From Endomicrobium sp. (lineage in GTDB: Bacteria > Elusimicrobiota > Endomicrobiia > Endomicrobiales > Endomicrobiaceae): a stretch of 64,000 nucleotides of DNA. The stretch spans positions 186,001 through 250,000 of the forward strand of contig JAISJB010000001.1 of NCBI GenBank assembly GCA_031261715.1, in the 5' to 3' direction. The notes beneath the pieces are model-generated. The model made no database searches. It was not told the DNA's origin and saw nothing but the letters and a program-made list of their open reading frames with translations. The stretch's first letter is position 1; each line of letters begins with the position of its first letter. A program made the position numbers and the translations under genes. Positions 22,449-44,334 of this stretch are shown in pieces.

Positions 22449-23804
22449 TTACCTTGTTAATTCTAATATTTCATTTTGTATACTATCAGCAAGTTTATTA
22501 GCAATCAACTCTATTTCTTTTTGATTTAATCCTTCTACCATTATTCTTATAACTGGTTCTGTGCCAGAATATCTTACTATAATACGCCCATTTAAATTTT
22601 TTTCATAAACATTAATAAGTAACGATGATTTTTTTAATTTTGTAAAAGGTATCTTCTTAACAATATGTTTATTGACAATTACTTGAGGTAATTTTTTTAT
22701 ATTATTACTATTCATAAATTCTGACATGGTTATGTTTTCACTGATTAAAATAGTTAACAGAATTATAGAGCTTAGTAAACCGTCTCCTGTTAACAGAGTA
22801 TCTTTAAATATAAAATGACCAGATTGTTCTCCTCCAAATGAAGCATTATATTTATTCATATTTTTTATAATAAAATAATCTCCAACTTCACTAAATATTA
22901 CCTTAATATCTTCTTTTGCCATTGCTCGTTGTATTCCTATATTACACATAGTAGTAGTAACTAAAGTATTATTGTGAAGTTTATTATGTTTTTTTAGCCA
23001 AATAGCCATTGAAGCAAGAAAATAATCACCATCTTTTATATTCCCTTTTTCATCAACGAAAACAACGCGATCTGCATCTCCATCAAATGCAAAACCGCAA
23101 AAAGCTTTATTTTGTTTAATTATTTGTGATAATTTATATGGAAATAGTGCTCCACAATCTAAATTTATGTTAACACCATTAGGATTAGTGTTTAATGCAA
23201 TAACATTAGCTCCAAGCTTTTTGAGTACAGTACACGCACATTTATAAACAGAGCCATTAGCACAATCTATAATTATCGTTTTATTATATAATTTATTAGG
23301 TAAAAATTGGTCCATAATAAAATTTTCATACATTTTCAAAAATATAGATTGTTCTTTACAAATAATATTGTTTCTAAAAACAATGTTTTTAAAATTAGAA
23401 GTATTAATATTAATATGCTTATATATTTCTAGTTCAATTTTAGATTCTAATAAATGAGAAATTTTCATTCCATGATGATCGAAAATTTTTATTCCATTGT
23501 CATAATATTTATTATGACTTGCTGATATTACTATTGCTGCTGAATAATTTTTTTTTGTTACAATATAAGATGCAGCTGCAGTTGGCATTACTCCACCTAA
23601 TATAGGCAAAGCCCCTGTGTGCAAAATGCCTTTAATTAATTCTTCTTGTATTCTTTTCCCTGATAGTCTTGTATCTCTAATAATAAAAATGTTAACACAC
23701 TTCATAACTCTAGCGATTGCCATTCCAATTACTTGTAGGCTATTATTATCAAATGGGAAATGAGAAGCATTGCCCCTTATACCATCAGTTCCAAATAATT
23801 TCAT
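22449..23804 (-). CDS. glmM: Phosphoglucosamine mutase
   Basis: Interconverts glucosamine-6-phosphate and glucosamine-1-phosphate for cell-wall and lipopolysaccharide precursors. The 451 aa begin LFGTDGIRG, carry the phosphoserine loop as VISASHNKYYDNGIKIF (usual Pro after Asn replaced by Lys), the metal loop FDGDADRVVFVD, the sugar-binding FGGEQSGHFIF and the phosphate-binding C-terminal VRYSGTEPVIRIMVEG. Catalytic residues look complete. It directly precedes glmS, giving two consecutive steps of amino-sugar synthesis. It follows the folP-like gene, matching the widespread ftsH-folP-glmM order. Confidence 0.96.
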   Translation of the reverse strand: MKLFGTDGIRGNASHFPFDNNSLQVIGMAIARVMKCVNIFIIRDTRLSGKRIQEELIKGILHTGALPILGGVMPTAAASYIVTKKNYSAAIVISASHNKYYDNGIKIFDHHGMKISHLLESKIELEIYKHININTSNFKNIVFRNNIICKEQSIFLKMYENFIMDQFLPNKLYNKTIIIDCANGSVYKCACTVLKKLGANVIALNTNPNGVNINLDCGALFPYKLSQIIKQNKAFCGFAFDGDADRVVFVDEKGNIKDGDYFLASMAIWLKKHNKLHNNTLVTTTMCNIGIQRAMAKEDIKVIFSEVGDYFIIKNMNKYNASFGGEQSGHFIFKDTLLTGDGLLSSIILLTILISENITMSEFMNSNNIKKLPQVIVNKHIVKKIPFTKLKKSSLLINVYEKNLNGRIIVRYSGTEPVIRIMVEGLNQKEIELIANKLADSIQNEILELTR

Positions 23805-23857: not shown

Positions 23858-24976
23858 TTAGATTTTTTGTAATACTTTCAAAAAATTTATAATATTAGTT
23901 GTTGTTTTGACATCATGCACTTTTATAATATTGCCACCATATAATAAGATCAACAAATTTTCGATTATAGATGTTGTTTGATGATTCTTAAAAAAGGGGT
24001 TAAGCATACTTTCTCTCTTATTAGATACTGTTCCAACTACAGCTCCAAGAGATGAAAACATATTAATGCTTTTCATTAACTTAATAGTGTGTGCTATATT
24101 TGTTGTCAAACTAAAACCTAAATCTACTGCAATATATTGTTCTTCTATTCCAAATTTCATTGCATATTGTTTTCGTTTTATAAAGAAGTCATATACTTTA
24201 TATATATAATCTGTACTGTTCATTTTAGTCATATCTTTACTATATACTAATATTAATCCAGCCTTTTGTTGTGATATAAGTATTGCTAATTTTTTACAAC
24301 CTTTATTTAAGGCAAATACATCATGTATTATATCAGCGCCCTCATTTAAGGCAAACTTTGCTGTTTTATATTTATAAGTATATATAGAAATAGGAATAGG
24401 AACATATTTTCTTATAATTTTAAGTATTGGAGATAATATTTTGATTTCAGTTGTTGAATCATACAAGTTTGATGAGTGTGTTTCTATACTTAGTATATTA
24501 ACTCCTAATTTTTTAAATATTATTGCACGTTTTAAAGCCTTTTGAGGGTCCAGTATATTACTTATAACACCCATGATAACAGGATATTCTAAGTTAAAAC
24601 ATTTATTTTTACATTGAAATACTATTTTAGTATTTAATATTTTTTTAAGCTTTAAAGCAAACTCTTGTAAGCCAAATGGTTGTAATGAAAGTTTGTTTAT
24701 TAATTTTGTTATTTGTGAACTATTTGCAAATAACACTGCATTAGACATCCCACACTTAAATTTACTAACGTTTTCATTAACAGCAACGTCTGCCCCTACA
24801 GATATGGCTTCTTGTTTAAGAATATTAAGCCCTTTATTATTCATTTTGTTTATTAATATTGTATTAGAAATACCTTTTTTGGCTAATGGGACACAAACAC
24901 TTTTACTACATCCAACTTTTTGAACTAGTTGTAAAGATTCATTAATGTTATTTATAAATACTTTTCTTAAAATCAA
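23858..24976 (-). CDS. FolP-like protein (dihydropteroate synthase fold, active site degenerate)
   Basis: By position (between ftsH and glmM) and overall pattern this is the folP ortholog, in the long form with an about 110-residue N-terminal domain (LKQEAISVGADVAV, LQPFGLQEF). The pterin-binding barrel can be followed, but motifs have drifted: GILNVTPDSF is GVISNILDP, DIGGEST is SIETHSSN, the Asp of PISIDT is Tyr, and the Asn of IIND is His. VDLGF, a possible SRK-loop lysine (VSNKR) and VHDV remain. The reading frame is open for 372 codons, so it is not an obvious pseudogene. Normal dihydropteroate synthase activity seems unlikely. The start is TTG; no better start is visible. Confidence 0.72.
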   Translation of the reverse strand: MILRKVFINNINESLQLVQKVGCSKSVCVPLAKKGISNTILINKMNNKGLNILKQEAISVGADVAVNENVSKFKCGMSNAVLFANSSQITKLINKLSLQPFGLQEFALKLKKILNTKIVFQCKNKCFNLEYPVIMGVISNILDPQKALKRAIIFKKLGVNILSIETHSSNLYDSTTEIKILSPILKIIRKYVPIPISIYTYKYKTAKFALNEGADIIHDVFALNKGCKKLAILISQQKAGLILVYSKDMTKMNSTDYIYKVYDFFIKRKQYAMKFGIEEQYIAVDLGFSLTTNIAHTIKLMKSINMFSSLGAVVGTVSNKRESMLNPFFKNHQTTSIIENLLILLYGGNIIKVHDVKTTTNIINFLKVLQKI

Positions 24977-25040
24977 TTTTCAAAACTCTGTAAGTATATT
25001 TTAATAAAAATATCTTTTTTCTTATTATAAGTATTATCTA

Positions 25041-26867
25041 TCATAAACTGTGACATAATGGTATTATAGATTCTCCGTTGATTATCTTATCTAATTCTTT
25101 ACCAGTTAATTTTTCTCTTTCTAATAAATGATCTACAATTTTATGTACAATATTCATTTTTGTTGTTATTATTTCTGTAGATTTGTTTTTTGTTATATTT
25201 ATAATATTTTTAATTTCTTCATCAATAATTTCAAAAGTTTTCCATGAGTGATTTAAATCGCTCTCTACAAGATCTTTTTGCATTGAATTTGCACTATTAT
25301 TAGAGAAGCGTAATGGGCCCAATTGTTCACTCATCCCAAACTCTGTTACCATTTTTGTAGCTATGTCTGTTGCTTTTGAAATATCATTTTGAGCTCCTGT
25401 AGTTATTTCTGAAAAAACTAGTTCTTCTGTTACACGCCCAGCAAGTAATACAGATAATTTATCTAACAATTCTGATTTAGAAGTTAAATACTTATCTTGT
25501 TCAGGAAGCTGTATAGTATATCCTAGTGCAGGTCCACGTGGAATAATAGATATCTTATGTACAGGATCACTTGATGATAAAAATTTAGCTACTATGGCAT
25601 GCCCAGCCTCATGATATGCTATAATCTTTTTTTCTTTTTTAGATATTAAACGCGATTTTCTTTGTGGACCAGTAATTATTCTTTCTATAGCTTCTTCTAT
25701 ATTTTTCATATTAACAACTTTCTGATTATTTCTTGCAGCCAACAAGGCTGCTTCGTTCATAATATTAGCTAAATCTGCACCAACAAAGCCAGGTGTACTT
25801 TTAGCAATTACATGTAAATCTACATTACCATCTAATTTAACTTTTTTTGAATGAACTGTAAGGATTGCTTTTCTATCTTGCATATCAGGATTAGGAATCA
25901 TAATTTGCCTATCAAATCTTCCTGGTCTTAATAAGGCTGGATCAAGAACATCTGGTCTATTTGTTGCGGCAAGTAAAATAACGCCTTCTTTAGTATCAAA
26001 TCCATCCATCTCTACTAACAGTTGATTTAAGGTTTGTTCTCTTTCATCATGCCCCCCGCCTATACCTGATAATCTATGTCTGCCAACAGCATCTATCTCA
26101 TCTACAAATAATAAACATGGAGCAGATTTTCTACCTCTATCAAATAAGTCTCTGACTCTTGATGCGCCTACCCCAACAAACATTTCAACAAATTCTGAAC
26201 CACTAGATGAAAAAAATGGAACACCTGCTTCTCCTGCTACAGCTTTAGCTAACAATGTTTTTCCTGTACCAGGAGCCCCAAATAGTAAAACTCCTTTTGG
26301 AATACGTCCACCTAATTTTTGGAACTTATCAGAATTTTTTAAAAATTCAACTATTTCCTGTAATTCTTCTTTAGCTTCTTCACATCCTGCAACATCTTTA
26401 AAAGTAATTTTTAAATTCGTATTACTAGCTATTTTGGCTTTTGTCTTTCCAAATGACATCATATGTTTGCCATTTCCTGTCACGCTTCGCATCAGCCATA
26501 ACCAAAACAACATTAAAAGTATTATAGGCCCCCAATTTAGCAAAATTGGGCCAATCCAACCATTTTTATCAGTTGCAGAAAACTCAAGCACTTTATTATC
26601 TTCCATATCCTTTATTAAATTTGGATCATTCATAGGAACAGTTCTAAACTTTTTTAATACTCCATCACTATCTTGAAATTGTCCTTTAATAATTCCTGAT
26701 GATACTAATACTTTAGAAACATTTCCACTTCTTATATATTGTTTAAACTGCGAATATTCAAGATCAACTTCATGACTTCTTTGGCGTGACGAATTAACTA
26801 ACATAAATATAATACTAAAGAGTGTTAACCAAAAAAATATGTACCATAGATTTTTTTTCTCTTTCAT
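25041..26867 (-). CDS. ftsH: ATP-dependent zinc metalloprotease FtsH
   Basis: Membrane-anchored AAA+ protease for quality control of membrane and short-lived proteins. Two N-terminal membrane segments (about residues 7-24 and 107-126) flank a periplasmic loop. The AAA+ module has Walker [14 protein letters not shown], pore loop FVEMFVGVG, Walker [12 protein letters not shown] and the second region of homology [20 protein letters not shown]. The zinc site HEAGH follows, with a third ligand region in [12 protein letters not shown]. The 608 aa are a normal length with a short tail. A strong AAGGGAG ribosome site precedes the ATG. Upstream of folP-like and glmM, as in many bacteria. Confidence 0.97.
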
Positions 26868-43731: not shown

Positions 43732-44334
43732 TTAAATAAACCTCTCTAACTTATTTATTATATGTTTTATCGCCTTTGGATATATATTGTGTTCAATTGT
43801 TAAAACTTTTTGAGCAACATCACTCGGAGCATCAGTTCTGTTAATATGAACTTTTTCTTGTATTATAATCTTACCTGTGTCATAGCTTTCGTCTACTAAG
43901 TGAACCGTTGCTCCTGATACGTTATCCTTAGCCTTGACTACTGCTTCATGAACATAATGCCCATACATGCCTTTACCTCCAAACTTAGGTAAAAGTGAAG
44001 GATGAACATTTAAAATTCTATTTTTATAATTTTTAACTATATTGCTTCCTAACATTTTAATGTATCCAGCCAAACATATAATATCTATTTTTTCTTTTAT
44101 TAATTCATTTAACAACTGAGTATCAAAATCTTGTTTGTTATTAAATTGAGATCTCATTATACAAATTACTTTTATGTGACATCTTTTTGCTACTGTTATA
44201 GAATAAGCATTTGCATTACTTGAAATAACTAATGTTACTTTTGCCAAATCTTTTAATATACCATGATTAGTAGCATTAATTATAGATAGCATATTTGAAC
44301 CATAACCAGATACTAAAATCGCAATAGCTTTCAT
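43732..44334 (-). CDS. purN: Phosphoribosylglycinamide formyltransferase (PurN)
   Basis: Transfers a formyl group from 10-formyltetrahydrofolate to GAR in purine synthesis. The 200 aa start IAILVSGYGSNMLSII, contain the active-site Asn and His in ILNVHPSLLPKFGGKGMYG and the catalytic Asp region SGATVHLVDESYDTGKIIIQ. Full length. Its use of a folate cofactor is worth setting against the eroded folP-like gene in this window: folate must still be present, whether made or imported. Its ATG shares one base with the purM stop. Confidence 0.95.
   Translation of the reverse strand: MKAIAILVSGYGSNMLSIINATNHGILKDLAKVTLVISSNANAYSITVAKRCHIKVICIMRSQFNNKQDFDTQLLNELIKEKIDIICLAGYIKMLGSNIVKNYKNRILNVHPSLLPKFGGKGMYGHYVHEAVVKAKDNVSGATVHLVDESYDTGKIIIQEKVHINRTDAPSDVAQKVLTIEHNIYPKAIKHIINKLERFI

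Follow-up and report, generated by a model that had tools for sequence, protein, structure and literature searches.

What does a folP gene still do when the active site of its synthase has gone? The question is raised by a gene in the folP position of a 64,000-nucleotide stretch of Endomicrobium DNA (hereafter the window), which comes from a reduced genome (483 kb over 5 contigs) in a lineage of termite symbionts; its relatives place this genome in the genus Endomicrobium/Endomicrobiellum. A first-pass annotation, made by eye, had described it as a 372-codon frame without stops in the conserved ftsH-folP-glmM position, with most pterin-site residues replaced and the N-terminal domain better preserved than the barrel, and had proposed either a retained but altered role or a very recent loss. 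The open reading frame bears out the length, with 372 codons, a TTG start and no internal stop. As to position, the gene does lie between ftsH and glmM, but relatives have folE between ftsH and folP (ftsH-folE-folP), and this gene is missing here. The features discussed below are listed in Table 1.

Table 1. Features of the folP-position locus and folate-related neighbours in the window (positions are those of the window).
Feature	Positions	Strand	Basis
folP-position gene: probable reductase domain fused to degenerate DHPS barrel	23858..24976	-	ORF; Pterin_bind 72.7 bits; TIGR01496 96 bits; AF2 pLDDT 89 (N-terminal domain) and 88 (whole protein)
N-terminal ~115-aa domain, residues 1-115, very likely DHFR2-type by homology	24632..24976	-	159.6 bits to family profile; AF2 pLDDT 89
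C-terminal DHPS TIM barrel, residues 131-372, fold predicted intact, synthase site lost	23861..24586	-	alignment; fold match 6day
Loop 1 remnant GVISN, residues 136-140; canonical GI(V/I)NMDPNSFSGDG	24557..24571	-	alignment
Loop 2 remnant SIETHSS, residues 163-169; canonical DIGAESSRPG	24470..24490	-	alignment
Tyr199 replacing Asp (E. coli D96 equivalent)	24380..24382	-	alignment
His218 replacing Asn (E. coli N115 equivalent)	24323..24325	-	alignment
ftsH-folP gap, 64 bp, folE site in relatives	24977..25040	.	no folE remnant
ftsH, normal neighbour; used in tree and rate comparison	25041..26867	-	ORF, tree, codon model
glmM, normal neighbour; used in tree and rate comparison	22449..23804	-	ORF, tree, codon model
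PurN-like formyltransferase, folate-dependent	43732..44334	-	Formyl_trans_N 150.9 bits

The window FolP was aligned with 50+ sequences from the same genus, other Elusimicrobiota and Clostridia, a comparison that upheld every substitution named in the first-pass annotation. The four replacements read by eye as S, S, Y and H are correct: the Asn of G(I/L)LN (N22 equivalent) is S139, the Asp of D(I/V)G(A/G)ES (D56 equivalent) is S163, and the Asp of SxDT and the Asn of IND have become Y199 and H218. The alignment added further losses, namely the Arg of SRK, now N319, the Arg of RVHD, now K352, the Lys of GFGK, about 10 residues of loop 1 (MDPNSFSGDG, directly after GVISN) and the RPG(V/S) of loop 2. 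The Asp of VDLGF, the SRK-loop lysine and the His of VHDV, noted earlier as remaining, are indeed present as D285 (the Asp of (V)DPG), K320 and His354. Counted over conserved positions, the window protein keeps 11 of 37 in the site compared with 48 of 71 in the barrel outside the site (Fisher p 2e-4), and 20 of 25 in the N-terminal domain; canonical FolPs on long branches keep 35-37 of the 37 site positions.

The protein passes the cut-off of Pfam Pterin_bind but reaches only 96.1 bits with the DHPS equivalog model TIGR01496, whose cut-off is 162.6; the same run gave 231-334 bits for eight canonical homologues. AlphaFold2 still predicts a confident barrel, whose best PDB match is a solved DHPS (6day, E 2e-17, TM-score 0.85 by target length). 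Of the properties of a dihydropteroate synthase (EC 2.5.1.15), the predicted model thus has the TIM-barrel fold, but the protein lacks the pterin/pyrophosphate site and an equivalog-level score, and the genome lacks the substrate supply via folE and folK.

A degenerate FolP was found in one further genome, Hm464_bin52 (G034, loci L029/L033; the window's own genome is G000), and the 31 other aligned FolPs of the genus are canonical, even those of the smaller assemblies G021 and G031. Because the degenerate form occurs in two independent assemblies, an assembly artefact is unlikely. In a tree of FtsH and GlmM the two genomes are sisters with a bootstrap of 100, followed by G031 as the next branch, and their terminal branches are long (0.19 and 0.25 substitutions per site). 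More has been lost from the sister protein than from that of the window, K320 and H354 included: it keeps 4 of the 37 site positions compared with 42 of the 71 other barrel positions (p 1e-6), and scores 51.4 bits with TIGR01496.

Both genomes have also lost the route to the substrate of the synthase. No folE remnant was found in the short ftsH-folP gap of the window, where relatives carry this gene, and a search of the genus genomes gave no folE match in G000, G034 or G031 and no folK match in G000 or G034; folK is present in G031. Among FolP-bearing genomes, those missing both genes are exactly the two with the degenerate FolP. The window's genome is a draft with an estimated completeness of 79%, and single gene absences in it carry some risk; folE and folK, however, are absent from each of the two sisters, and the conserved place of folE is empty as well. 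Folate is nevertheless still used: the window's genome encodes ThyX (220.9 bits), GlyA, FolD, Fmt, MetH and PurN, the last of which had been singled out earlier as still needing folate and does match Formyl_trans_N. The survey of folate genes suggested by the first-pass annotation further showed folC to be intact in both sisters and folB to be without a match in any of 42 genomes of the class; no ECF folate S-component exceeded the cut-off, and no folA (PF00186) match was obtained in 8 genus genomes.

Several other observations were made during this survey. The class-wide absence of folB, with folE, folK and folP present, implies an alternative aldolase, and p-aminobenzoate synthesis is reported missing in Endomicrobium generally (PMC8809381). 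G031 (L135, G031:C1:11000-30000), the next sister, has folK and a canonical FolP without folE, which looks like a transitional state or the use of imported pterin. The ~200 kb assembly G021 (L132; 66% complete) keeps folE, folK and a canonical FolP and gave no FolC match. G008, a 400-kb assembly of 52% completeness without FolP, folK and folE, was set aside as a case of folate loss; ftsH is missing from it too and its glmM match is weak, and an assembly gap is probable. A second Pterin_bind match in the window's genome, considered as a replacement FolP, turned out to be MetH (L001:712-3138; 808 aa), which has homocysteine, pterin and B12 domains and no activation-domain match; a 171-aa ORF (L001:3140-3655) directly adjoins it and might be a split-off part.

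For the N-terminal domain of the protein, Pfam has no model and solved structures gave no sequence match; IMG/VR yielded no relatives of it. Fold-search matches to a ThyX-like fold were weak (best E 0.23) and were not used. Within the Elusimicrobiota the domain occurs in the Endomicrobiales and one other lineage; leaving aside one contig-end fragment, the frames that contain it are all of FolP size, with ~370 residues or more. Its profile matches the N-terminus of the Sulfurovum mangrovi FolP (89 bits), a campylobacterial protein that stands for Helicobacter in this comparison, and the FolC-FolP linkers of haloarchaea (Natrinema, E 5e-10; Haloarcula marismortui pNG700, E 3e-6; H. turkmenica, E 7e-4); short FolPs and shuffled controls gave no match. 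Levin et al. 2004 reportedly located reductase activity in the N-terminal part of the H. pylori enzyme and in the haloarchaeal linker homologous to it. The window domain keeps K54, Q55, G61, Q99, F101, G102 and L103.

In PMC1971073, which cites Levin, Mevarech & Palfey 2007 on Helicobacter pylori, three bacterial dihydrofolate reductases are distinguished, DHFR2 being a flavin-dependent dihydropteroate reductase fused to DHPS; Methylacidiphilum, which has no folA, is thought to use FolP instead (PMC2474590). The window protein has a homologous N-terminal domain before its barrel, in a genome with ThyX and no folA match. Judged from this homology, the domain is very likely a DHFR2-type flavin-dependent dihydropteroate/dihydrofolate reductase domain. 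An anti-correlation between folA and the domain across the Elusimicrobiota was uninformative, folA being absent everywhere sampled. Since folA is also absent from sampled Elusimicrobiota without the domain (G043-G056 and others, outside the Endomicrobiales), the phylum has at least one further reductase; one could exist here, and the domain need not be the sole one.

The two halves of the gene have evolved under different constraint. In pairs of canonical FolPs the identity of the barrel exceeds that of the N-terminal domain by about 10 points, an order that is reversed in the window (N-terminal domain 55%, barrel 46%) and in its sister (53% and 35%). Between these two, the N-terminal domain shows 15.5% differences at second codon positions and 45.5% at third positions; the corresponding values for the barrel are 28.6% and 47.6%. 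In a codon model with branch lengths shared with ftsH and glmM, in which terminal branches were compared with the background, omega was 0.161 vs 0.159 for the N-terminal domain and 0.305 vs 0.110 for the barrel, values that are rough because synonymous sites are saturated. Across taxon sets and domain boundaries the barrel omega stayed at 0.30-0.34 against a background of about 0.1. An omega of 1 on the terminal branches was rejected for both parts (2dlnL 91.6 for the barrel, 141 for the N-terminal domain), for the barrel also with a second taxon set (2dlnL 22.3), and other domain limits agreed. For a barrel evolving neutrally, 0.2 neutral substitutions per codon would suffice to produce a stop with ~96% probability, whereas the fitted branches measure about 2-3 substitutions per codon (saturated). 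The gene is thus kept and its synthase site is not, and the barrel fold is partly constrained: selection on it is relaxed, not neutral. The dN/dS comparison among relatives, which had been proposed at the outset, thereby confirms that the N-terminal domain, evolving at its normal rate, is the better preserved part and the one under selection. It also favours a retained but altered role, the more so as a deeply diverged sister has the same kind of loss in an open frame; for the same reasons, and with a stop expected long before, very recent loss is disfavoured.

We consider it likely, as the best account of these data, that the protein, once a bifunctional synthase/reductase, now acts in folate salvage as a reductase carried by a dead synthase barrel and takes the place of the missing folA. 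The ancestor would have carried an N-terminal flavin-dependent DHFR2 domain fused to a dihydropteroate synthase barrel. The line leading to the endosymbiont clade would have lost folE first, as it is also gone in G031, and then folK, which would have ended de novo pterin synthesis and left the synthase without substrate, so that its site could decay in both surviving lineages. The bacterium probably lives on imported folate, taken up by a putative importer; with folate still used and no folA, this folate must still be reduced. Imported oxidised or dihydro-folate would be reduced to tetrahydrofolate by the fused domain, with a predicted bound flavin, and then polyglutamylated by FolC, in keeping with the need of intact-folate salvage for DHFR plus FolC (PMC1971073). 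A fused reductase that is still needed would account for the ordinary purifying selection on the N-terminal domain. The likely reason for keeping the barrel is that the reductase domain, which was never seen without it, folds or dimerises on it; as such a scaffold it would persist under relaxed selection, although it is somewhat surprising on this account that all 240 barrel residues are kept open. It is unlikely, if worth entertaining, that the dead barrel has found a new use, holding imported dihydrofolate for the salvage-only flavin reductase domain or presenting it to that domain.

A rebuilt site that makes the barrel a new enzyme or binding protein, for instance one holding imported dihydrofolate for the reductase domain, would agree with a barrel that is relaxed without being neutral (omega 0.3), keeps its predicted fold and, in the window copy, retains D285, K320 and H354. 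Of the 108 conserved barrel columns, however, 42 have changed in both sisters and only 9 of these alike (5 being the loop 1 deletions), and the sister has lost K320 and H354 too; because the sisters differ at most changed positions, a new common site is unlikely, and we regard this explanation as rather improbable. Slightly less credit still is due to a pseudogene in the making, with the whole gene free of selection and its frame open through very recent loss. The missing folE and folK, the raised barrel omega and the eroding genomes of the group (PMC11257099) would suit it, but neutrality is rejected for both domains, the N-terminal omega is unchanged, the frame of the sister lineage is open as well, the expected stop has failed to appear and the large loop deletions keep the frame; neither a lack of constraint nor stops or frameshifts were found. 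It is hardly credible that the protein, its site diverged, still works as a dihydropteroate synthase on imported pterin pyrophosphate: the three remaining site residues and the Pterin_bind score speak for it, against the loss of loops 1 and 2 and of the N22, D56, D96, N115 and R255 equivalents, the absence of HPPK (folK) and a score far below the DHPS equivalog cut-off.

The locus amounts to a natural domain-inactivation experiment, in which folate synthesis is gone and the synthase site decays while the N-terminal domain does not. This is strong evidence for a need for the N-terminal domain in its own right, which matters since very few organisms have had the reductase half of a DHPS-DHFR2 fusion assigned, and since no dihydrofolate reductase is known for many bacteria. 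A synthase-dead natural protein also offers a clean start for assay and structure determination of a domain without Pfam model. For annotation it would be a warning that 'folP present' need not mean folate prototrophy in such genomes.

The closest known systems include the canonical Endomicrobium FolPs (such as L031, L131 and L132), which share the gene position, both domains and 46-52% overall identity with the window protein, but have a complete synthase site in genomes with folK and, except in G031, folE. The H. pylori DHPS/dihydropteroate reductase (cited in PMC1971073) also has an N-terminal reductase domain before a DHPS barrel in a ThyX organism without folA; unlike that enzyme, the window protein has lost the DHPS site, and its genome folE and folK, so that the reductase role is the only one that can remain. 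Haloarchaeal FolC-FolP fusions such as that of Haloarcula marismortui pNG700 (RR_RS03955) contain a linker homologous to the N-terminal domain, whereas the window's genome encodes FolC separately and has lost the DHPS site. The course of decay proposed here resembles the folate-loss series of phytoplasmas, in which folA is complete and folK and folP are pseudogenes (PMC3743221), DHFR thus being kept while folK and folP decay. In phytoplasmas, however, these are separate genes, while in the window reductase and synthase form one polypeptide and decay proceeds domain by domain.
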